DNA from: Stomoxys calcitrans
Lineage: Eukaryota > Arthropoda > Insecta > Diptera > Muscidae
Direction: 5' to 3'
Assembly (NCBI RefSeq): GCF_963082655.1
Contig: NC_081552.1
Span: 58,136,561 to 58,200,560 of the forward strand
Length of the DNA: 64,000 bases
Within the stretch, counting starts at the first letter, position 1. Every line of letters begins with the position of its first letter. A program made the position numbers and the translations under genes. The notes under the pieces are model-generated. The model was not told the origin of the DNA, ran no database searches, and saw nothing but the letters and a program-made list of their open reading frames with translations. This document shows, in pieces, positions 5,000-59,086 of this stretch.

Positions 5000-5012
5000 A
5001 TGTTATAAAAGG
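5000..5012. repeat. Target-site duplication, left copy (13 bp)
   Basis: ATGTTATAAAAGG, an exact match to 9832-9844 on the far side of the LINE. Confidence 0.85.
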
Positions 5013-5467
5013 CTTTGAGTTGAGTTTCTTACCGAGAGTAGTCATTTCTGTGCGCGGCTCCAGAGTTTTTGGCCCCAGCTGCTATATCTGGCCCTGTAAC
5101 ACCGTGAATTATACTCGAAATACTGCACAGCGTGGACGCTCAACTGGCCATATTGAGTATCGGAAGTTTTGGCGTTCGGCATCACTAGTGGAACCAAATT
5201 AAAAAATCAAAACTCCCAAATTTTGGACTGGAAAGTGAATAATTTTGGTTTTTACTCAAAAGTTAAAAGAGTTGTGTTGATCACTGATAAAACAGCTGTG
5301 TTTACTCTTTCTGGCAAATATTGGTTTTGGTACGAGGTTGCCACCTTTTCAAATTTGGAACGCTATCACTTATCGCCTAAGAGAAGAAGAAGAAGAATTA
5401 CACCTGACCGTTACAACTTTTTTAAATTAAATAATCAACTGCAACAATACTGATTGCGCCTAAAAAT

Positions 5468-6337
5468 ATGTCAACTCCTCCAGTCAATTCGCCATTCAGT
5501 ACAGCCAACACAGTGGGACGAGTAGAACAAAATGTGAAACGGAGATTAATGGAAACATCTCCAGATAATTCGGCCTTGGTAGGAAGCATGTCCACATTGG
5601 AACTTATGAAGGTGATGCAAGAGGCCATGTCAAAACTTTTGGACGATAAATTAGAAAATTTACCAACAAAATCTGACATATTGGATATCAAAACCCACAT
5701 GGAAGGGGTTAAGAGCGATGTTAATCGGCTTACAAACGAAAATGAAGAACTCAAAAGAGAGATTAAAGCACTGCGAGAAGAGAAGGAAGAGGACCGTAAA
5801 AGACTGCAAAGACTGGAAGATCAATTAGGAAGAAGTAAACTAATAATTCGAGGGTTGCCAAACCAAAAATCTTTGTATGGGGCTGTCAACAAAATTTTCC
5901 AACACAATCTAAAGATGAATACTGAGCTGGACATAGAAAACGTTAAAAAAATTCAAGAAACAGGAGACAAAATGACGGTTATAGTTGAATTTCAATCGTC
6001 GAGAACTGTGAGAGAAGTACTAAAATCAACAAAGATGCTGGCTGGTTCATCCGTTTTTATAGAAAGAGACCTCAGTGGGATGCGTTTGCAGAAAAAGAAA
6101 GTAATGCTGCTATTGAAAAAAGAACTGCAGAAAATTAATAAAGATAAAAAGATCGGGGTGAGAGGTGAACAACTTGTGACGGAGGGAAAAACTTTCTATT
6201 GGAATCTTAAAAATAAGCTAATGTGTGGCCAAAGTTGCGGTGCCGAAATTTTACAAAATATTTTTGGTAAGGATATACAAACAATTAATTTAAGTTATGA
6301 TCAATTAGTAGCTAACTTAATTGCAAAAAACTACTAA
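5468..6337 (+). CDS. LINE ORF1: coiled-coil RNA-binding protein (L1-ORF1p-like)
   Basis: 289 residues. Seen: a polar N-terminus, then a charged heptad-rich coiled coil at about 70-120 (NENEELKREIKALREEKEED). Next comes a block starting KLIIRGLP and continuing through VIVEFQSSRTVREVLKS and SVFIERDLSGMR, followed by a lysine-rich helix. The order matches LINE ORF1 proteins of the coiled coil/RRM/C-terminal type, which coat the element's RNA and act as nucleic-acid chaperones. No CCHC knuckles are present, unlike the I-clade ORF1 at 44101. The ATG at 5468 has A at -3 and is the first Met of the frame. The last codons GCA AAA AAC TAC TAA contain a slippery heptamer leading into ORF2. Family-level function is likely; clade is uncertain. 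Confidence 0.8.
   Translation: MSTPPVNSPFSTANTVGRVEQNVKRRLMETSPDNSALVGSMSTLELMKVMQEAMSKLLDDKLENLPTKSDILDIKTHMEGVKSDVNRLTNENEELKREIKALREEKEEDRKRLQRLEDQLGRSKLIIRGLPNQKSLYGAVNKIFQHNLKMNTELDIENVKKIQETGDKMTVIVEFQSSRTVREVLKSTKMLAGSSVFIERDLSGMRLQKKKVMLLLKKELQKINKDKKIGVRGEQLVTEGKTFYWNLKNKLMCGQSCGAEILQNIFGKDIQTINLSYDQLVANLIAKNY
6325..6331 (+). promoter_or_regulatory. Putative -1 ribosomal frameshift site A AAA AAC
   Basis: In the ORF1 frame the codons read GCA AAA AAC TAC TAA, giving the canonical X XXY YYZ heptamer in exact register, two codons before the stop. A -1 slip continues as CTA CTA AAG in the frame of ORF2, which is open from 6316 (after TAA at 6313). No in-frame ATG exists near the ORF2 start, so some recoding or reinitiation is required. 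I saw no strong downstream hairpin by eye. Confidence 0.6.
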
Positions 6338-9300
6338 AGGCAAATAGATTGCTGAATGAAAATAGGAATCTAAATTCTCATGAAGAAAAACTTAATATAG
6401 AAATTATTGAAAAACCAAAAGATTATACAGTAAATATTATAGCATACAATATTCATGGTTTGGCCGGTAAAAATCTTCACCACAGGTTTTTTGAATACTT
6501 AGAGCAGTTCGACATTTTTATTCTTTCGGAGACGCATGTTGAGAAGAAAAATCAAGAAAATTATACAAAAAAATTTAAAAATTTTAAAATTTACTGGAAC
6601 TTTGCTACCAGAAATAGCAATAGAGGGAGAGGTATTGGTGGTCAACTGTATGGAATACGAAATGATTTGGAGGAAAATGGTTTCAAGCATGTATTTTCAA
6701 ATCGAGGAAATCAAGATGTGCTGCAATGCGAATTTAATTCGATCCGTTTTGAAATTTTACCGGTTTATCTTAGAGGAGCGAATTGGAATCAAGATTTCGA
6801 AAATTTAAAGGCGGCTGTGGATAGTTCTGAAGGCACTGGAATTGTAGTTGGGGATCATAATATTCGGATCGGAGAAGAACAAGAACTGCCTTTAGAACTA
6901 CTGGAAGATCGTAGTATGAGTAACATCAGGCGCTCGAAAGATAAAACAATTACTCCAAATGGAAAAAAATACGTTGAGTTTTGTAATAATAATGGTCTAG
7001 TGATTTTAAATGGGAGGATGCCAGGAGATGAAGAAGGTAAATTTACTTTTCTAAATAGAAATGGTAGTTCTGTAATTGATGTGTGTGCCGTATCTCTGAA
7101 TATGTTGACTTATGTTAAGACTTTTCGAGTAGATGAGCAAATCTGGTCTGACCACCTGCCTGTAATTCTGGAACTAGCTATGCCGTACACAAGTCAGAGA
7201 ATGCCACAAAAAGGTAATCTCCTGCCAAAATTAACTTGGAAAGAAGCAAAGAAAGAAACATTTCATAACAATTTAAACCAACAACTGTGCACTCTGCCAT
7301 TGAATCCCAGGTTGGAAGATTTTATAAAAACGATCTATGAGTCATATCCTAGCTGTTTAAATAACAAGAAATATCTTTTCAAAAACAAATGGTTTGACAA
7401 GGATTGCTCAAAAAGTAGAAAGAAGGCAATGAGTACGCTCAATAAATTTAGGAAGTCTGATAAAATATGCGACAAGAATGCCTACGTCGAACAGAAGAAA
7501 GAATACGAGAAGCTATGTAAAGTCAAAAAAATTGATTATTATAAAAGTATTGCGGAAAAGATGGACACGGTATCTGATAGTAAAACCTGGTGGAAAATTG
7601 CAAAGGAAATTAGACAAATCGACAGAGATACAAGCTGTTGCATCTCTGCGAACATATTAAAAAGCTATTTTGAACGCCTTTTGAATCCGTTATGCAATAC
7701 CGAACCAATGTATTATGCTCCCAATAACTTAACCGATCTACTGCTTGATAGAGAGTTCTCCGTTGGCGAGATTAAGGAACAGCTTAGAAATGTCGGGACA
7801 AACAAAGCACCAGGAGAAGATCGCGTCCCATACGAGTTTTTTATGCACGCGACAGACGAATTCTTAGGAAAATTATGCAATGCCTTCACTAATATTTTGA
7901 ACGGTTTTGACGACTTCGAAATATTCCGCACAGGTATCATATTCCCAATTCATAAAAAAGGAAACCTAGACGAAGTGAGTAACTATCGAGGTATCACTTT
8001 CATGAACTGCATAGGGAAACTTATGATAGGAATGATCAACTGTAGGATAGTGGACTGGCTAAACCGATATCAAATATTGAACGAATATCAGGCGGGATTT
8101 AGAAAAGGATACTCTACAGTGGACAATATCTTTAATCTCTCAGCTATAATTAATATTAAATTACACGACAATAAAAAGGTTTATGCTTTTTTCGTCGATT
8201 TTAAGGCCGCATTTGATAGAGTGCCAAGAGGACTGTTAATATATAAACTGCACGAAATCGGTCTGTCATCTAAAATTACCCGCTTTGTAGAAAAAATCTA
8301 TGAGAACACAAGGTCTGCAGTTTGGTCAGGCTCCCAAATGTCGGAATATTTTGACACATGTACTGGAGTTAAACAAGGCTGTTTATTGTCGCCAACCCTC
8401 TTTGCCATTTACCTTAATGATTTACATGAACACTTGGAGGGAGGACTTCAAGTGGATCAAACTAACATTCGTCTATTAATGTACGCGGATGATATAATAA
8501 TAATGTCGGATAATCCGAGAACTTTACAACAAATGATCTACAACTTGGAATCTTACTGTGATAAATGGGGAATGGAAGTTAACCAGATAAAATCTGAGAT
8601 AATGGTATTTAGGAAAGGCGGAAAACTTTCCACAAACGAAAAATGGGCATACAAAGGCGAACTGATCAGAATAGTAAATGAATACAAGTACCTGGGACTG
8701 ATACTAACTCCGAAATTATCATTTACTAAACACCTGTCAAAGAAAGAAGAAGCTGCAAAAATTGCTCTTAATTCCACATGGAAACATTTTATTGCTAAAC
8801 CATCCGTTAACCTAACCTCGAAGTGGAAAATGTTTTTAGCCGTTTGTCGCTCTATACATAGCTACGGTGCGCAGATATGGGGAAATTCCTACTTTAATGA
8901 GGTGGAAAAACTCTACCGATACTTTATTAAAAAAATATTGAAACTTCCAGAGGCCACTCCAAACTACGTAATCGCTCTTGAGACAGGATACGAACCTGGT
9001 TACATATATACTTATTCTTTGCACTTACAATACTTGTCGAAAGTGTTATTCGATCTCGAGAGCCACAGACTGCCACATATACTAGCCGAAAAACTTGCAA
9101 ACAAAAATCTAGCCTGGTTTAACGATTATAGTACCCAACTCTCGTTGCATAACATAAATAGTAATAATGTTAAAATAAATAAAAAATCTTGGATGAGTGC
9201 AGCACAGCAACTTTTAATGGACATGAAAGCCAATAAGTTTAATGATCACTTACAAAAAGCGCAGCAAAGTGAAAACAGAATATATAAATACCTCGATTAC

Positions 9301-9651
9301 AATGTTGGCCCCATGTATTGCACAGAAAAATTCAGCCAAGAACAAATAACTTTGATTCTGAAAGCTAGAGGTGATCTAATGTGGTTGAACTTTAATAAAT
9401 ATAGGACCTCGAATGAACAAAGATGTTCATTGTGTAATTTGGGAGAAGCAGAAAATTTAGTCCATTTCATTGGCCGCTGTCCAGTATTAGCAAATATGAG
9501 AGTTAGACATTTTAATAGAACTCTATTGGATCAAACCGAAATTATTAGCATACTAAATGGTGGTGAAGGTTTTTGCTGGGTGAATTTACTAAACTTCTTA
9601 AAGGAAGCAAGAAAATATAGAAATATGTTAATAGAAGAGTTTAATTACTAA
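6331..9651 (+). CDS. LINE ORF2: endonuclease/reverse transcriptase polyprotein
   Basis: About 1,100 residues, uninterrupted. Numbering below counts from the TTG at 6349. N-terminal endonuclease/exonuclease/phosphatase domain: YNIHGL (Asn 34), SETHVE (Glu 61), GDHN and SDH (267-269). Reverse transcriptase: NYRGITFMN, QAGFRKGYST, FVDFKAAFDRV, GVKQGCLLSP and YADD (712-715). Near the C-terminus a CxxC...HxxxxC motif (RCSLCNLGEAENLVHFIGRC) common to many LINEs. No RNase H was seen. The protein would nick target DNA and prime reverse transcription there. There is no ATG before the catalytic residues; the start given is where a -1 slip on the ORF1 message enters the frame. A non-AUG start (TTG 6349) is the alternative. 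Confidence 0.85.
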   Translation, partial: LLKANRLLNENRNLNSHEEKLNIEIIEKPKDYTVNIIAYNIHGLAGKNLHHRFFEYLEQFDIFILSETHVEKKNQENYTKKFKNFKIYWNFATRNSNRGRGIGGQLYGIRNDLEENGFKHVFSNRGNQDVLQCEFNSIRFEILPVYLRGANWNQDFENLKAAVDSSEGTGIVVGDHNIRIGEEQELPLELLEDRSMSNIRRSKDKTITPNGKKYVEFCNNNGLVILNGRMPGDEEGKFTFLNRNGSSVIDVCAVSLNMLTYVKTFRVDEQIWSDHLPVILELAMPYTSQRMPQKGNLLPKLTWKEAKKETFHNNLNQQLCTLPLNPRLEDFIKTIYESYPSCLNNKKYLFKNKWFDKDCSKSRKKAMSTLNKFRKSDKICDKNAYVEQKKEYEKLCKVKKIDYYKSIAEKMDTVSDSKTWWKIAKEIRQIDRDTSCCISANILKSYFERLLNPLCNTEPMYYAPNNLTDLLLDREFSVGEIKEQLRNVGTNKAPGEDRVPYEFFMHATDEFLGKLCNAFTNILNGFDDFEIFRTGIIFPIHKKGNLDEVSNYRGITFMNCIGKLMIGMINCRIVDWLNRYQILNEYQAGFRKGYSTVDNIFNLSAIINIKLHDNKKVYAFFVDFKAAFDRVPRGLLIYKLHEIGLSSKITRFVEKIYENTRSAVWSGSQMSEYFDTCTGVKQGCLLSPTLFAIYLNDLHEHLEGGLQVDQTNIRLLMYADDIIIMSDNPRTLQQMIYNLESYCDKWGMEVNQIKSEIMVFRKGGKLSTNEKWAYKGELIRIVNEYKYLGLILTPKLSFTKHLSKKEEAAKIALNSTWKHFIAKPSVNLTSKWKMFLAVCRSIHSYGAQIWGNSYFNEVEKLYRYFIKKILKLPEATPNYVIALETGYEPGYIYTYSLHLQYLSKVLFDLESHRLPHILAEKLANKNLAWFNDYSTQLSLHNINSNNVKINKKSWMSAAQQLLMDMKANKFNDHLQKAQQSENRIYKYLDYNVGPMYCTEKFSQEQITLILKARGDLMWLNFNKYRTSNEQRCSLCNLGEAENLVHFIGRCPVLANMRVRHFNRTLLDQTEIISILNGGEGFCWVNLLNFLKEARKYRNMLIEEFNY

Positions 9652-9831
9652 TTAAGAATAAAATTAAACAGAAAAATATAATAACTCAATACTCCGGCAG
9701 ACGGTTTAATTATAAACCATGCTGTAAAATTCTTTATTATCAATAAGATATTTTTTGTAAAATTGTTTTATACATATTATAACGTTATATGAAATAAAGA
9801 ACCATTGAATTGAAAAAAAATTGAATTGAAA

Positions 9832-9844
9832 ATGTTATAAAAGG
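9832..9844. repeat. Target-site duplication, right copy (13 bp)
   Basis: Exact match to 5000-5012, directly after the TTGAATTGAAA tail. Confidence 0.85.
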
Positions 9845-30446: not shown

Positions 30447-31397
30447 TTGGGTTGCCCAAAAAGTATTTGTTGGTAATATTGTAGTAATATAGTCGGCGTT
30501 GACAATTTTTTTCAACGGCTTGTGACTCTGTAATTGCATTCTTTCTTCTGTCAGTTATCAGCTGTTACTTTTAGCTTGCTTTAGAAAAAAGTGCGCGAAA
30601 TTTTGTTTACATTTGTTTGTTTGGCGTCAATTTTAATATGGGTACCACATGTATTGAAAGAAATTCATTTAACAAACCGAATCAACGCTTGTGATATGCA
30701 CCTTAAATGCAATGAATTCGATCCGTTTTTAAAACGAATCATAACTGGAGATGAAATATGGATTGTTTACAACAACGTTAGTCGAAAACGATCATGGTCC
30801 AAGCATGGTGAACCAGCTCAAACCACTTCAAAGGCCGATATCCACCAAAAGAAGGTTATGCTGTCTGTTTGGTGGGATTGGAAGGGTGTGGTATATTTTG
30901 AGCTGCTTCCAAGGAACCAAACGATTAATTCGGATGTTTACTGTCAACAATTGGACAAATTGAATACAGCCATCAAGGAGAAGGGACCAGAATTGGTCAA
31001 TCGTAAAGGTGTCATATTCCACCAGGACAACGCTAGTACGCACACATCTTTGGTCACTCGCCAAAAACTGAGTGAGCTTAGCTGGGAACTTTTGATGCAT
31101 CCACCATATAGCCCTGACCTTGCACCATCAGACCACCATTTATTTCGATCTTTGCAAAACTCCTTAAATGGTAAAACTTTCGGCAATGATGAGGATATAA
31201 AATCGCACTTGGTTCAGTTTTTTGCAGATAAAGGCCAGAAGTTCTATGAGCGTGGAATATTAAATTTGCCAGGAAGATGGCAAAAGGTTATCGAACAAAA
31301 TGGAAATTATATATTTGATTAAAGTTCATTCTAAGTTTTATTAAAAATGCATTTACTTTCTTTTAAAAAATCCGCAATTACTTTTTAGGCAACCCAA
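30447..31397 (+). mobile_element. mariner element 1 (951 bp, internally deleted)
   Basis: Inverted termini TTGGGTTGCCCAAAAAGTA and (inverted) TTACTTTTTAGGCAACCCAA lie in a TA duplication (30445-30446 and 31398-31399). Full-length mariners are about 1.3 kb; here the 5' third of the transposase is deleted. The 5' leader (GTCGGCGTTGACAATTTTTT onward) is also found, inverted, in the derivative at 25415. Confidence 0.9.
30636..31322 (+). pseudogene. mariner transposase, N-terminally deleted
   Basis: The open frame runs from WVPHVLKEI to the stop after EQNGNYIFD. The catalytic triad of a D,D34D mariner is intact: TGDEIW, FHQDNAS and PYSPDLAPSD, with 34 residues between the second and third Asp. 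The DNA-binding N-terminal half (about 115 residues) is missing; upstream codons (LFTFVCLASIL) come from translated leader, not transposase. No ATG precedes WVPH in frame. The protein could not bind its ends. It resembles the cecropia-type branch, tentatively. Confidence 0.85.
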
Positions 31398-44022: not shown

Positions 44023-44057
44023 TCAGTCGTATTCTGACTGTGAAAACGAACGAACGT
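44023..44057 (+). promoter_or_regulatory. Putative internal LINE promoter (Inr + DPE-like)
   Basis: TCAGTC at the first base of the element matches the arthropod initiator (TCAGT). GAACGT at +28 to +33 from its A differs by one base from the DPE consensus RGWYVT. TATA-less promoters of this layout drive jockey- and I-type LINEs of insects. Activity is inferred. Confidence 0.5.
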
Positions 44058-44100
44058 CTGTAAAACCGCAGAGCCAAAACTCTCTACTTACAACAAAAAA

Positions 44101-45231
44101 ATGAGTGTTAATACCAAACAACCCAATTTTGAAATTGACAATAAGAAATTGTTTAAAAATTACACTATTGGTCCCAAATACCTCATGATGTCAAGAACAG
44201 ATAGTGAAGAAACTCTCATTAATGTGTCTCCTTTCTTAATTAAAAAAGTCATTGATAGTGTATGTGGAGAAATTGAAATGTGCAAAAAACTCAGAAGTGG
44301 CGATATTCTAATTAAAACAAAAACTGCAACTCAAGCCACAAAATTGTTCCAACTCATTTCTCTCACAAATGAAATAAAAGTCGAAGTGAAAGAACATAAC
44401 TCTCTCAACTATTCCAAGGGAGTTATCTACTGTAATGATCTACGTGGAATCCCTGAGAATGAAATTCTAAATGAACTAAAAAAACAAAACGTAACCGAAG
44501 TTCAAAAAATTTTAAAAAAAAATGAAGACTCTCTCATCGAAACTGGTCTCATTATAATTACTTTTTCTCTACCCAATTTACCTGATGAAATTAATATTGG
44601 ATATGAGAAAACGTGCGTGCGGCCTTATATTCCCTTGCCCATGAGGTGTCGTCAGTGTTTCCACTATGGACACCCAACAAAACGGTGTAAAAATAATAAA
44701 ATTTGCATTAACTGTGGTGACATAGCTCACACACAAGAAAATGAACTCTGCCAAAACAACACTAAATGTATAAACTGCGATGAGAACAAATTAGATGATA
44801 AGTCCCACTCTGTGCTCAGTAAAAAATGCCCCGTTTTTCTAAAATTCAAAGAGATACAGGCCATTAAAACACTCGACAAAGTAGATCACAAAACTGCTCT
44901 CGCAACATACAAACAACGTCATCCAAATGACACTGTCTATTCCAAGGTTACAAGAAGCACTGTAAGCTATCACGATCTCCCAACTACTTCCAACAACAAC
45001 ACAAACTACGCAATGTGTGAAAATAAGAAGCAACAGCAGGCAAAACCATCAGACCCCGCACCACCGCAGCCTTTAGTGAATGCTCGCGACAAACCAACAA
45101 CTGTCAACATACTGCCGAAGAACATATCGAAACGAACAAGAAATGAGCTCAAGAGCAAAAGTGCGGCTATCAACAATCCAAAAAAATTGTGCAAAAATTC
45201 AACGGAGAGTGACAACTTATCCGACGAGTAA
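44101..45231 (+). CDS. I-clade LINE ORF1: CCHC zinc-knuckle nucleic-acid-binding protein
   Basis: 376 residues. The middle contains a series of knuckles from Cys 183: CRQCFHYGHPTKRC fits CX2CX4HX4C, CINCGDIAHTQENELC is a variant with a longer last spacing, and a third, degenerate one begins CINCDENK. The N-terminal half (GPKYLMMSR, SGDILIKTKTATQATKL, EIKVEVKEHNSLN) resembles the region before the knuckles in I/jockey ORF1 proteins. The basic tail has KRTRNELKSKS. Such proteins bind the element's RNA and form the RNP. ATG 44101 follows ACAACAAAAAA, a good insect start context. A relic of the same ORF1 is at 15185. Confidence 0.88.
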   Translation: MSVNTKQPNFEIDNKKLFKNYTIGPKYLMMSRTDSEETLINVSPFLIKKVIDSVCGEIEMCKKLRSGDILIKTKTATQATKLFQLISLTNEIKVEVKEHNSLNYSKGVIYCNDLRGIPENEILNELKKQNVTEVQKILKKNEDSLIETGLIIITFSLPNLPDEINIGYEKTCVRPYIPLPMRCRQCFHYGHPTKRCKNNKICINCGDIAHTQENELCQNNTKCINCDENKLDDKSHSVLSKKCPVFLKFKEIQAIKTLDKVDHKTALATYKQRHPNDTVYSKVTRSTVSYHDLPTTSNNNTNYAMCENKKQQQAKPSDPAPPQPLVNARDKPTTVNILPKNISKRTRNELKSKSAAINNPKKLCKNSTESDNLSDE

Positions 45232-45453
45232 AAGAACAACACTACAGTCAGTTGAGTCGATTGACGTCACTCGGGAGAGTCTGACTTGTTTTGCTTCCAC
45301 TCAAGTCATCGGTGACTTGTTTTGGTCTCATCTCGAGTCATCGCTACCGTTTTGATTTCTCTCGACTCAACGTGGATACCAATTAGAAAAAACTCTTATA
45401 CGTTGCTTCTATCTAACAGCTGCACTTTATTTTTTTTTCTCTTATTTAATATC

Positions 45454-48400
45454 ATGGTACTTAAGTTACTCCAATGGAATATTAAAGGTTATTGCAACAA
45501 CTATAATGAATTATTAACTTTAATAAAGAAGCACACACCCAATATTATTTCTCTTCAAGAAACTCACTTCAAAACTAAAAATAGCATACCAATACCAATA
45601 AATTTTTGTATCTATACATCAAATAATTCTGCAATACTAATCCATAAATCTATACAACATGAGTACATCGGAAGTTATGACCATTTGGACACAGTATGTG
45701 TTAAAATTGTCGCTAAATCAAATATCTACTTATACTCGACATATCTTAACCCGTCAAAAACCTTTACGATCAAGGACCTGGAACATCTATTCTCTTTCTC
45801 TTCTCATGACATGCTCATATCAGGAGATATGAATAGTTGGCATCCCCAGTGGGGATCTGCTAAGACCAATAAAAGAGGCAAAATTCTTTCAAAGTTTATT
45901 ACCCAATCAAATCTAGCTATATTAAATGACGGTTCGCCGACTCATTTTTCTACTCACAAGACTTTCACCCATATAGATCTCACTTTAATTTCAGCATCAC
46001 TATTAGTTCATGCTAACTGGCATATAGAGACTGATCTCTATGGTAGCGATCACTTCCCTATAGTGACGACGCTGTTTCAGGAAAAGTTTTCAGATAATGG
46101 GTTTCGACTTAAACCTTTATTTAATACAAGCAAGGCCAACTGGCCCCTTTTTCAGAGTCTTTCTGAGAAATTTTGCTTGGAAAGACAACGTAGTGAGAAT
46201 ATTAATAAAGAAGCTGCTAATATTCAAAAAATAATTTTGATGGCTTCTAACGAAGCAATTCCGCAATATCAAACCCCTAAGTATAGACCCTTTGTTCCAT
46301 GGTGGAACAAGAAATTAGATAAATTGAAGCGAGAGAGAAATCATTTTTTAAATTTATTCAGAAGAAATATTACTGACGAGAACCTTGTCTCACATCGTAG
46401 GGCTAATGCAGTATACAAGAGGGAACTTAAACTTTCCAAGCAGAAATCAATAGATAAATTTACATCTGTGATTAACAATTCATATCCTACGGGCCAGATT
46501 TGGTCCAATATTAGACGTTTCTGCGGCGTTAAGCCGAAAACACCTATTGCATACATATCCGGCGATGACGGGATGATCTCAAATCCTACGGGAATTGCAA
46601 ATAGATTTTGTTCATACTGGTCCCAGCTTTCAGAAGATTCTAATTTTCCGACGTTATTCCAATCGTTAAAGAGCCAATTTTTAGAGAACCCGAAACACTT
46701 AGTTCCTAGTAAAAATGCTAGTCTTATAGAGACTAACATAGATTTTTTAGAATTCACAATATCTCTTAACAAGCTTAAGGGCAAGACACCTGGAATCGAT
46801 AGAATCAATTACAAAATGCTAAAACATCTTGATTTAAATACCAAGAAACGTATTGTGAGATTATACAACGACATCTTGAACACACAAATCCCACAGTTCT
46901 ATAAAAACAGTCTTATAATCCCAGTACTAAAACCTAAAGGCGACAAAACTTCTGTTTCTTCTTATCGGCCTATATCTCTAAACATATGCTGCTCCAAAGT
47001 ACTGGACAAAATTGTAGCCAATAGACTATGGTGGTTTATCTCTTCTAATAAGCTACTTAACAATAACCAATTTGGTTTTAAAAAAGGTAAAAGTATAGCA
47101 GATCCACTTTTACTTCTAGATTATATAATAAATAACTCCCTAAGAACAAGAAAACACATTTCTATAATATCACTTGACTTTTCAAAAGCTTTTGATAAGA
47201 TTGGCTTACACACTATTCTCAATCAATTGGAGGAATGGGGTATCGGACCCAAAATTTTTAAATACATTAAGAACTACTTAACTAATAGGAAGATTAAAGT
47301 AAAAGTTGGAGCATACAGCTCCGAACTCAATAACCTTCACAATGGTATACCCCAGGGTTCACCCCTTTCTGTAGTTTTATTTCTAATCGCTTATAATAAG
47401 CTTTCAGAATTACTCGAATCAGACAAATCTCTGAAATTCTTATCCTACGCCGATGATTTTGTAATAATAAAGGAACTTAGCAGGCTGAACCAACCGATCA
47501 TCGACCTTAACAATACGATATGCGCTATAGAAGACTGGTGTAACTATTCCGGAGCGGAACTGTCAATAGACAAATGTAAGCATCTCCACATTTGCAGAAA
47601 ACGAAACTGCAGTCCAGTTCTAAACTGCAACAACTACTCTATATGTCCAGTGAACAAATTAAAAATACTAGGCATAACCTTCAACAGCAAGTACAAATGG
47701 GATTCCCACATAGAGGAATTAAGCACATCGCTCTCAAAAAGGCTTAACATTATTAAATGTTTGTCAAACAAAAACTATTCTTGCGATACCTCTACACTTA
47801 TCACTATAACACGTTCTGTCATTGTTTCGAAAATCTCATATGGTATATATCTTTACGGATACACCTCCAAAGCCCTTCTCAATAAAATCAAAACTACATA
47901 TAATTCTGCCGTGCGTTTATCGCTAGGTGCACACCGCACTACAAAAATTTTTAATTTACTATTCGAAGCTAACCTGAAGACTATTGAAGACTATAGAGAT
48001 ATTGCTACAGCCCAGCTGATTAAAACAATTTTATTTAATGATAAAACCCCCCTCATGCAAATGCTTAATAAAGCTTTGAAAACTAAGAAATTTTATAAAA
48101 CAGACTCCGCTATTGGGCGTATTGTTTCCGCCTGTAAATCCTACAACCTACCTTTCAACTACCCCGCTCCCAAGACGAATAACCCTTATTGGAGGTTCAA
48201 TCCAGCAACATTAGATACATCCCTACGAAAGTATTCAAAGGAGCATACAATCCCACATCTTTATGTAGCTGAATTTCAGAATATTTGCACCAAACTGCAG
48301 AACTATAGTTTCATTTTCACAGATGGTTCTAAAATTAACAATGTTACAAGTTATAGTCTAGTTACCGACAAGAGAATTATCAAGACATCTCTTCTTCCAG

Positions 48401-49125
48401 AATATAGCTCAGTTTTCTCGGCTGAAATAATCGCAATTCTTGAAGCTATCAAGTTCGCAAAGAGATCTAAAGGCAATTTTGCTATCGTCTCTGATTCATT
48501 ATCTGCCTTGGACTCTATAGCGAACCACAACAGTACTGAGGTTTATTCCTCCATAATAAGAGATCTGCTGATCCAAGAAAATAGAAAAATCAAATTAATT
48601 TGGGTTCCAGGTCACTCTAATATTTTAGGAAACGAATTTGCTGATGCAGTAGCTAAACAAGCCAATAAAATGCCTCTTATATCCACCGCAAATACATCCC
48701 CAAATGATATAAAGAAACATATACAAAAAGATTTTTCATTAAAACAAATTGAGATATGGAACAGCTCCTCGCTTTGGTATAAGAATCTGAATAGAAATAA
48801 ATTAAATCTGCATGACTATCTACACAAAGACCAATTACTGTCCAGGAGTGATCAAGTCAAAATTATAAGGCTAAGATTAGGTTACTGTCGTTTGACACAT
48901 GACCAGGTCATTGACCGAACTTTAGATAAACACTGTCCGTTCTGTAGATCCAGTACTTCCGATACGACTCATATATTTTTATTCTGCCCACATATTAAAT
49001 TGCTTATATCAAACTATTTTCCAAACAAAAGTTTATTGGAGATTCTTAGCAATATCAATGCCCCTTCAAACAAATTAGACTTAATTAATTTTCTTAAATC
49101 ATGTAACCTATATAACCTTATTTAA
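45454..49125 (+). CDS. I-clade LINE ORF2: endonuclease, reverse transcriptase, RNase H
   Basis: 1,223 residues from ATG 45454. The frame is open further upstream, but the leading codons (to TTG 45322) are spacer-like, and endonuclease homology begins at residue 3. Endonuclease: LQWNIKG (Asn 9), QETH (Glu 36), SGDMNSWH, GSDHFP. RT: SYRPISLN, FGFKKGKSIAD, LDFSKAFDKI, GIPQGSPLS and YADD (665-668). RNase H: FTDGSK (Asp 957), SAEIIAILEA, VSDSLSALDS and GHSNILGNEFAD. C-terminal CPFCRSSTSDTTHIFLFC is the Cys/His motif. All catalytic residues looked for are present, so it appears competent for target-primed reverse transcription. The 3' tail is an AATA repeat as in I elements. The relic at 15746 is a related element. 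Confidence 0.92.
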   Translation: MVLKLLQWNIKGYCNNYNELLTLIKKHTPNIISLQETHFKTKNSIPIPINFCIYTSNNSAILIHKSIQHEYIGSYDHLDTVCVKIVAKSNIYLYSTYLNPSKTFTIKDLEHLFSFSSHDMLISGDMNSWHPQWGSAKTNKRGKILSKFITQSNLAILNDGSPTHFSTHKTFTHIDLTLISASLLVHANWHIETDLYGSDHFPIVTTLFQEKFSDNGFRLKPLFNTSKANWPLFQSLSEKFCLERQRSENINKEAANIQKIILMASNEAIPQYQTPKYRPFVPWWNKKLDKLKRERNHFLNLFRRNITDENLVSHRRANAVYKRELKLSKQKSIDKFTSVINNSYPTGQIWSNIRRFCGVKPKTPIAYISGDDGMISNPTGIANRFCSYWSQLSEDSNFPTLFQSLKSQFLENPKHLVPSKNASLIETNIDFLEFTISLNKLKGKTPGIDRINYKMLKHLDLNTKKRIVRLYNDILNTQIPQFYKNSLIIPVLKPKGDKTSVSSYRPISLNICCSKVLDKIVANRLWWFISSNKLLNNNQFGFKKGKSIADPLLLLDYIINNSLRTRKHISIISLDFSKAFDKIGLHTILNQLEEWGIGPKIFKYIKNYLTNRKIKVKVGAYSSELNNLHNGIPQGSPLSVVLFLIAYNKLSELLESDKSLKFLSYADDFVIIKELSRLNQPIIDLNNTICAIEDWCNYSGAELSIDKCKHLHICRKRNCSPVLNCNNYSICPVNKLKILGITFNSKYKWDSHIEELSTSLSKRLNIIKCLSNKNYSCDTSTLITITRSVIVSKISYGIYLYGYTSKALLNKIKTTYNSAVRLSLGAHRTTKIFNLLFEANLKTIEDYRDIATAQLIKTILFNDKTPLMQMLNKALKTKKFYKTDSAIGRIVSACKSYNLPFNYPAPKTNNPYWRFNPATLDTSLRKYSKEHTIPHLYVAEFQNICTKLQNYSFIFTDGSKINNVTSYSLVTDKRIIKTSLLPEYSSVFSAEIIAILEAIKFAKRSKGNFAIVSDSLSALDSIANHNSTEVYSSIIRDLLIQENRKIKLIWVPGHSNILGNEFADAVAKQANKMPLISTANTSPNDIKKHIQKDFSLKQIEIWNSSSLWYKNLNRNKLNLHDYLHKDQLLSRSDQVKIIRLRLGYCRLTHDQVIDRTLDKHCPFCRSSTSDTTHIFLFCPHIKLLISNYFPNKSLLEILSNINAPSNKLDLINFLKSCNLYNLI

Positions 49126-58150: not shown

Positions 58151-59086
58151 TTGGGTTGCCTAAAAAGTAATTGCTGATTTTCATATAGTCGGCGTTGACA
58201 AATTTTAAGCATTAATCGAATTGGATCGTCATGTTACTGAGCGTGAGATAGGAGAGAAGTTAAATATACCAAAATCAACCGTTCATTATCACATAAAAAG
58301 TCTTCGACTGGTGAAAAAGCTTGATATTTGGGTACCACACGTATTGAAAGAAATTCATTTAACAAACCGAATCAACGTTTGTGATATGCACCTTAAACGC
58401 AATGAATTCAATCCGTTTTTAAAACGAATCATAACTGGAGATGAAAAATGGATTGTTTACAACAACGTTAGTCGAAAACGATCATGGTCCAAGCATGGTG
58501 AACCAGCTCAAACCACTTCAAAGGCCGATATCCACCAAAAGAAGGTTATGCTGTCTGTTTGGTGGGATTGGAAGGGTGTGGTATATTTTGAGCTGCTTCC
58601 AAGGAACCAAACGATTAATTCGGATGTTTACTGTCAACAATTGGACAAATTGAATACAGCCATCAAGGAGAAGAGACCAGAATTGGTCAATCGTAAAGGT
58701 GTCATATTCCACCAGGACAACGCTAGACCGCACACATCTTTGGTCACTCGCCAAAAACTGAGTGAGCTTGGCTGGGAACTTTTGATGCATCCACCATATA
58801 GCCCTGACCTTGCACCATCAGACCACCATTTATTTCGATCTTTGCAAAACTCCTTAAATGGTAAAACTTTCGGCAATGATGAGGCTATAAAATCGCACTT
58901 GGTTCAGTTTTTTGCAGATAAAGGCCAGAAGTTCTATGAGCGTGGAATACTAAATATGCCAGGAAGATGGCATAAGGTTATCGAACAAAATGGCAATTAA
59001 ATATTTGATTAAAGTTCATTCTCAGTTTTATTAAAAATGCATTTACTTTCTTTTAAAAAATCCGCAATTACTTTCTTGGCAACCAT
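58151..59086 (+). mobile_element. mariner element 2 (about 936 bp, internally deleted)
   Basis: TTGGGTTGCCTAAAAAGTAA at the left, in a TA target (58149-58150). At the right GCAATTACTTTCTTGGCAACCA is a decayed inverse copy followed by TA. The transposase remnant keeps more of the N-terminus than element 1, so the two derive from different deletions of the same parent. Confidence 0.85.
58209..59000 (+). pseudogene. mariner transposase, missing N-terminal helix-turn-helix and last residues
   Basis: The frame is open from ALIELDRHVTEREIGE (second helix-turn-helix, IPKSTVHYHIKSL) through WVPHVLKEI to a stop after EQNGN. The triad is TGDEKW, FHQDNAR and PYSPDLAPSD with D34D spacing, and DNARPH matches the mariner norm better than DNASTH in element 1. 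About 70-80 N-terminal residues are deleted, so no start codon remains. A TAT-to-TAA change removes the last four residues (YIFD) found in element 1. Confidence 0.85.

Follow-up and report, generated by a model that had tools for sequence, protein, structure and literature searches.

How is the second open reading frame (ORF) of a long interspersed nuclear element (LINE) translated when no start codon precedes its first domain? The question is raised by a complete LINE, a retrotransposon without long terminal repeats (non-LTR), on the forward strand of a 64,000-nucleotide (nt) stretch of the Stomoxys calcitrans genome (NCBI RefSeq assembly GCF_963082655.1, contig NC_081552.1, positions 58,136,561 to 58,200,560), hereafter the window, in whose own numbering coordinates are given. 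A preliminary description of this stretch had noted the heptamer A AAA AAC at the end of ORF1 and suggested that ribosomes use it to reach ORF2. We propose that ORF2 is made as an ORF1-ORF2 fusion through programmed −1 ribosomal frameshifting at this heptamer, a reading to which we assign a probability of about 0.88. The features on which the argument turns are the following.

5468..6337, + strand: ORF1, 289 amino acids, L1 ORF1p-like; ATG at 5468, stop TAA at 6335-6337, frame open over 5435-6337
6325..6331, + strand: slippery heptamer A AAA AAC, in register; kept in 19 of the 20 families read
6332..6337, + strand: TAC TAA, the zero-frame stop one codon past the heptamer; stop at +0 or +3 nt in all 19 heptamer families
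6316..9651, + strand: ORF2 in the −1 frame, 1,111 codons from stop to stop (ORF list); post-shift translation from 6331
6331..6441, + strand: linker between heptamer and endonuclease, open in the −1 frame and without ATG

ORF1 ends in ATT GCA AAA AAC TAC TAA, which places the heptamer in exact X XXY YYZ register with a single sense codon (TAC) between it and the stop. ORF2 lies in the −1 frame relative to ORF1, and its frame opens at 6316, 9 nt upstream of the heptamer. ORF2 has its first in-frame ATG 591 nt past the first A of the heptamer, beyond the start of the endonuclease domain, and the ATG at 6356 belongs to the ORF1 frame, where it is followed by a stop after five codons. The preliminary description read the site correctly. 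It calls A AAA AAC a highly efficient eukaryotic −1 slippery site, and in the review PMC5009743 (like the other papers below, cited for the excerpts drawn on) the heptamer figures among those most prone to shift on mammalian ribosomes. Counted from the first heptamer codon, the window linker reaches the endonuclease motif after 39 codons and holds five stops in the zero frame, that of ORF1 included, and six in the third frame. A loose scan of both ORFs for slippery heptamers returns 13 in-frame sites, among which the junction is the sole A AAA AAC. The junction alone nevertheless proves little, since in-frame heptamers of slippery type are not rare in an A-rich element, and it is conservation that decides.

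Conservation of the ORF1 end

Related copies were collected in two ways. A DNA query of 341 bp against the host genome gave 38 matches, of which 35 align across the junction: 13 belong to the family of the window copy (family A), 10 to family B (about 70% identical) and 12 to family C (about 67%); L022, L042 and L046 fail to align at the junction. Families beyond these came from protein searches with six ORF2 queries, a seventh query yielding none that was followed. Only the top candidates of such searches are scored (42 of 29,503, for example), so the set of families is not exhaustive but a sample. Junctions were read in 20 related families of the host genome, A-L and M-T. Each of the families N-T is represented by one or two copies, with one junction per family and two for T, in which L119 ends short of the junction and L120 and L121 were taken up next. 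Sampling of families D-L found the heptamer in 24 of 30 loci; one of the others, L104, is scored as a failed junction, and the remaining five (L077, L081, L091, L096 and L103), in which no ORF1 end is joined to ORF2, are left out of the count. Among viral contigs and prokaryote genome contigs no relatives were confirmed.

In 19 of the 20 families (A-L and N-T) ORF1 has an in-register A AAA AAC at its end and ORF2 lies in the −1 frame. The zero-frame stop follows directly, at +0, in 12 of them (F, G, H, I, J, K, O, P, Q, R, S and T) and one codon on, at +3, in the other seven (A, B, C, D, E, L and N). Copy by copy, the junction is intact in 66 of 68 members of these families, that is, in 34 of 35 from A-C, 24 of 25 from D-L (L104 counted) and 8 of 8 from N-T. 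The two exceptions are L019, with one substitution within the heptamer and also a TGA inside ORF2, and L104 of family K, from which a deletion has removed the junction. Such conservation across families shows that the heptamer is not there by chance. The expectation, implicit in the preliminary description, that heptamer, register and −1 relation recur in relatives is thus borne out in 19 families and fails in family M, where a UAG separates two ORFs in one frame.

Two side observations concern the site itself. The deletion in L104 (G000 C2:134117564-134118314) merges ORF1 and ORF2 into a single frame of 1,377 codons, and this copy is one of five merged rows in one ORF2 protein search. In families O (L109, bases 94-118) and P (L110, bases 100-124) a second in-register A AAA AAC lies six codons upstream, and both heptamers fall within the open −1 frame.

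Whether the heptamer is held at the level of nucleotides or of amino acids can be read from synonymous positions. The last 165 ORF1 codons of the 12 families A-L were aligned (pairwise identity 28-72%, median 38%), and changes were counted by parsimony on a FastTree tree in columns with a residue shared by at least 9 of the 12 families. Of the 19 two-fold-degenerate columns, 17 show 1-4 synonymous changes each; the only two with none are the heptamer Lys (AAA in 12 of 12) and Asn (AAC in 12 of 12). The base preceding AAA is A in all 12 families, across Ser, Ala, Thr and Pro codons, against 4-7 changes in each of the 20 columns with at least nine four-fold codons. Over all ORF1s pooled, AAA accounts for 71% of Lys codons and AAC for 35% of Asn codons, from which the chance product for the heptamer would be about 10^-12 if families were independent; they are not, and the figure is a guide only. 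The heptamer is thus conserved at the nucleotide level, beyond the amino acids alone, and amino-acid conservation is rejected as its cause, the synonymous positions being fixed too. No synonymous disruption of the kind that would have spoken against the site occurs in the 12 families tested. At the protein level, every one of the 13 ORF1 homologues that the protein database yielded (32-100% identical) has KN, or KN and one further residue, as its C-terminus; these are protein sequences only, and six of them look like families A-F again.

The frames around the heptamer are in keeping with this. In none of the 19 families does a stop interrupt the −1 frame on the way from the heptamer toward the endonuclease motif, over a linker of 18-41 codons where the motif lies inside the piece read (the pieces of O, P, S and T end at the motif, and that of R covers 17 codons). 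All 19 linkers contain a stop in the third frame, and 16 contain zero-frame stops in addition to that of ORF1, the exceptions being H, J and L. On its other side, the heptamer is preceded by just 3-24 nt of open −1 frame in 18 of the 19 families. A short upstream opening together with closed other frames is what entry into the −1 frame at the heptamer, or close to it, would predict.

The arrangement also multiplies, since seven family A copies carry the 1,111-codon open frame, free of stops inside the matched stretch, and four, the window copy among them, are identical across 341 nt. An ORF2-like fragment, L070 (G000 C4:172541182-172542207), is 67% identical to the window ORF2 and sits in a stop-free frame given as 2,636 codons, which may be a chimeric gene or a stop-free repeat.

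In the mechanism that we propose, ribosomes near the end of ORF1 would hold Lys-tRNA and Asn-tRNA on AAA AAC. A small fraction would slip one base back and continue as ...A K N L L K..., thereby bypassing the ORF1 stop, which follows at once or after one codon, and the remaining ribosomes would terminate and release free ORF1 protein, so that ORF1 would be in large excess. Shifting would then be infrequent and would proceed with no structured stimulator, and the fusion would presumably be the working protein. The preliminary description was right on the site and, judged from the sequence evidence, very probably on the mechanism too.

Competing routes to ORF2

Several observations weigh against a −1 shift as the general route. 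The families are related by descent, and counts per family are therefore not independent. In family T the −1 frame already opens 90 nt upstream of the heptamer and so points there less sharply. Classical −1 frameshift sites have a downstream stem or pseudoknot, and we found no conserved one: folding of 6332-6420, which the preliminary description had suggested folding for a pseudoknot, gives z −1.14; the 80 nt past the site in families A-L give z −1.4 to +2.1; and a crude pseudoknot scan of the same families offers a candidate in F only, matched by 5 of 60 shuffles. On these grounds we reject a conserved downstream stem or pseudoknot. A bare A AAA AAC would give a low shift rate, which would suit a LINE needing far less ORF2 than ORF1. 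Further points on this side are an in-frame linker ATG in five families (H, O, P, Q and R), the UAAUG of family R and the absence of a heptamer from family M, and these bear on how ORF2 might otherwise be reached.

The best-placed alternative is termination-reinitiation, in which ribosomes would stop at the ORF1 stop codon and restart nearby in the ORF2 frame, on an ATG or a near-cognate codon. Reviews, in the excerpts used here, present this as the LINE mechanism (PMC5902531, PMC2881922). In family R (L112, bases 161-172) the heptamer is kept and the next bases form UAAUG in the correct frame for ORF2, and H, O, P and Q have their in-frame ATG 12-32 codons downstream. The preliminary description's remark that ORF2 lacks an upstream in-frame ATG extends to 14 of the 19 heptamer families, the window element included, and fails in these five; in the 14, no ATG stands between the heptamer and the endonuclease motif, so that ORF2 has no start of its own after a spacer. 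UAAUG is absent from the window element and from 17 of the 18 other heptamer families. The sequence past the ORF1 stop varies between families, whereas the codons before the stop are fixed at synonymous positions, and reinitiation has no need of a heptamer. We therefore consider it an unlikely route for the lineage. For family R itself, reinitiation resembling the SART1 stop-start overlap is possible, as is an intermediate position between frameshifting and reinitiation.

Gene models of ORF2 relatives touch the same subject. Five of them (P0041, P0046, P0047, P0057 and P0059), from Haematobia irritans, Nilaparvata lugens and Rhodnius prolixus, begin within or after the endonuclease start, which is what the lack of an upstream ATG would lead one to expect. 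P0032 (S. calcitrans LOC131997617, 1,306 amino acids), considered as a natural fusion, was rejected: it joins a family H ORF1 (...REEGES) to EFEIIILIETH and looks like a gene-model artefact, since the junction and the endonuclease start are both omitted.

Slippage on the A run, during transcription or reverse transcription, could gain or lose a base and leave part of the mRNA frame-fused. The run comprises six A in 17 families and seven in the other two, S and T, and six is short for slippage by a eukaryotic polymerase. None of the 19 families has lost the terminal C or the codon register, whereas plain slippage requires neither AAC nor this phase, and among the 68 junction copies only L019 has an altered run, by substitution, the site of L104 being deleted. 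Slippage is accordingly very improbable. Scarcely credible, finally, is that the copies do not express ORF2, its protein being supplied by another element and the junction passively inherited: some copies are indeed broken (L019 and L044, for example), but both ORFs are long and uninterrupted in families down to 28% ORF1 identity, several copies per family have long open ORF2 frames, and the heptamer is constrained at synonymous sites.

With −1 frameshifting at the heptamer thus preferred for the 19 families, family M calls for a separate account. In 5 of 5 copies read (L107 and L113-L117; G000 C1:108971500-108972460 and four more copies), a single UAG, in the context CAA UAG CAA UUU, separates its ORF1 from an ORF2 in the same frame; there is no heptamer, and the short stretch from stop to endonuclease motif is free of ATG. 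P0049, with which the family was retrieved, shows 37% identity to the window ORF2. A profile of the window ORF1 family matches the upstream 199 residues of the family M ORF1 (E 1.6e-18), but not its last 63 residues taken alone. UAG CAA UUA is a classical readthrough context. Family M looks like a changed recoding mode, in which UAG readthrough has probably replaced the frameshift with a fusion still being made. For the lineage as a whole, we lean towards a history in which independent initiation of ORF2 was given up in favor of fusion at a structure-free heptamer, with single branches that switched to readthrough (M) or moved toward reinitiation (R).

Element anatomy and neighbouring features

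The remaining features of the element are listed below, its limits being set by a 13-bp target-site duplication.

5000..5012, + strand: 5' copy of the target-site duplication, ATGTTATAAAAGG; family D11, matching 9832-9844 exactly
5013..9831, + strand: complete LINE (non-LTR retrotransposon), 4,819 bp
5013-5467, + strand: 5' leader of the LINE
6430..7170, + strand: probable APE-type endonuclease domain, approximate limits, from conserved columns with edges set by inspection
7948..8703, + strand: reverse transcriptase domain; Pfam PF00078 (RVT_1), E 3.1e-36; PDB matches L1 ORF2p and R2
9424..9480, + strand: C-terminal Cys-Cys-His-Cys motif; C1037, C1040, H1050 and C1055 invariant in 19 aligned sequences
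9832..9844, + strand: 3' copy of the target-site duplication, 13 bp, same as 5000-5012

The ORF1 protein has a long coiled coil, an RRM and a C-terminal domain, as in L1-like LINEs, and, likewise in keeping with that class, a Pfam search of the window ORF2 finds nothing for RNase H at E 0.01; nor did Pfam match any protease or integrase family in the element. Residues 150-284 of ORF2 score 24.8 bits against Pfam PF14529, under the cut-off of 27.4, and this domain is present in ORF2 relatives such as P0003 (58% identical).

Elsewhere in the window, positions 44044-49125 hold a second LINE (endonuclease, reverse transcriptase and RNase H) of different layout, the ORF2 of which has its own ATG at 45454, 222 nt past its ORF1 stop. 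Two similar open frames, at 30585-31322 and 58209-59000, look like candidate mariner-type transposases.

Relation to known systems and significance

A AAA AAC is used for gag-pol −1 frameshifting in retroviruses. The junction described here shares with retroviral and LTR gag-pol the heptamer class (PMC5009743, in excerpt), the register and, if our reading holds, the pairing of an abundant upstream protein with a rare fusion that bears the reverse transcriptase; it differs in belonging to a LINE, with an L1-like ORF1p and an endonuclease-reverse transcriptase ORF2, and in having no conserved downstream structure that we could find. The excerpts on non-LTR elements tell another story. A 2018 review contrasts them, as users of termination-reinitiation for the second ORF, with retroviruses and LTR elements (PMC5902531), and reinitiation is described for silkworm SART1 at a UAAUG overlap and for human L1 after a spacer (PMC5902531, PMC2881922, PMC5972666), the initiation of mammalian LINE ORF2 being called unknown in section 13 of PMC5009743. 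Like SART1 and human L1, the present element is a two-ORF LINE on one RNA, with an ORF2 output presumably far below that of ORF1; unlike them, most of its families have no ATG for ORF2 and would enter the frame by a shift.

Recoding has been suggested for two other non-LTR cases. In Paramecium LINEs, +1 frameshifting, reinitiation or readthrough between ORF1 and ORF2 has been put forward (PMC5405496); the direction of the shift is +1 rather than −1, and the excerpt of that paper contains neither a slippery heptamer nor a synonymous-site test. The frameshift of HeT-A, mentioned among retrotransposon derivatives in section 13 of PMC5009743, likewise concerns a non-LTR element of a fly (Drosophila), but one with no reverse transcriptase of its own, in which the shift lies within gag expression and not between gag and pol.

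The open-licence literature searched, largely titles and the starts of abstracts, reports no conserved −1 heptamer between ORF1 and ORF2 of a LINE. Older papers propose frameshifting for single elements, and we claim no priority. What seems new is that the heptamer holds across a diverse LINE lineage, with no structured stimulator found and with one branch seemingly using readthrough.

If our reading is true, the lineage breaks the contrast drawn between reinitiation in non-LTR elements and frameshifting in LTR elements (PMC5902531, in the excerpt used), and it offers a natural series for how LINEs set the ratio of ORF1 to ORF2. The 20 natural variants, readthrough-like and stop-start forms included, make the question of ORF2 initiation addressable with reporters. 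The site, which looks conserved without a pseudoknot, would be a minimal system for −1 slippage beside a stop codon.

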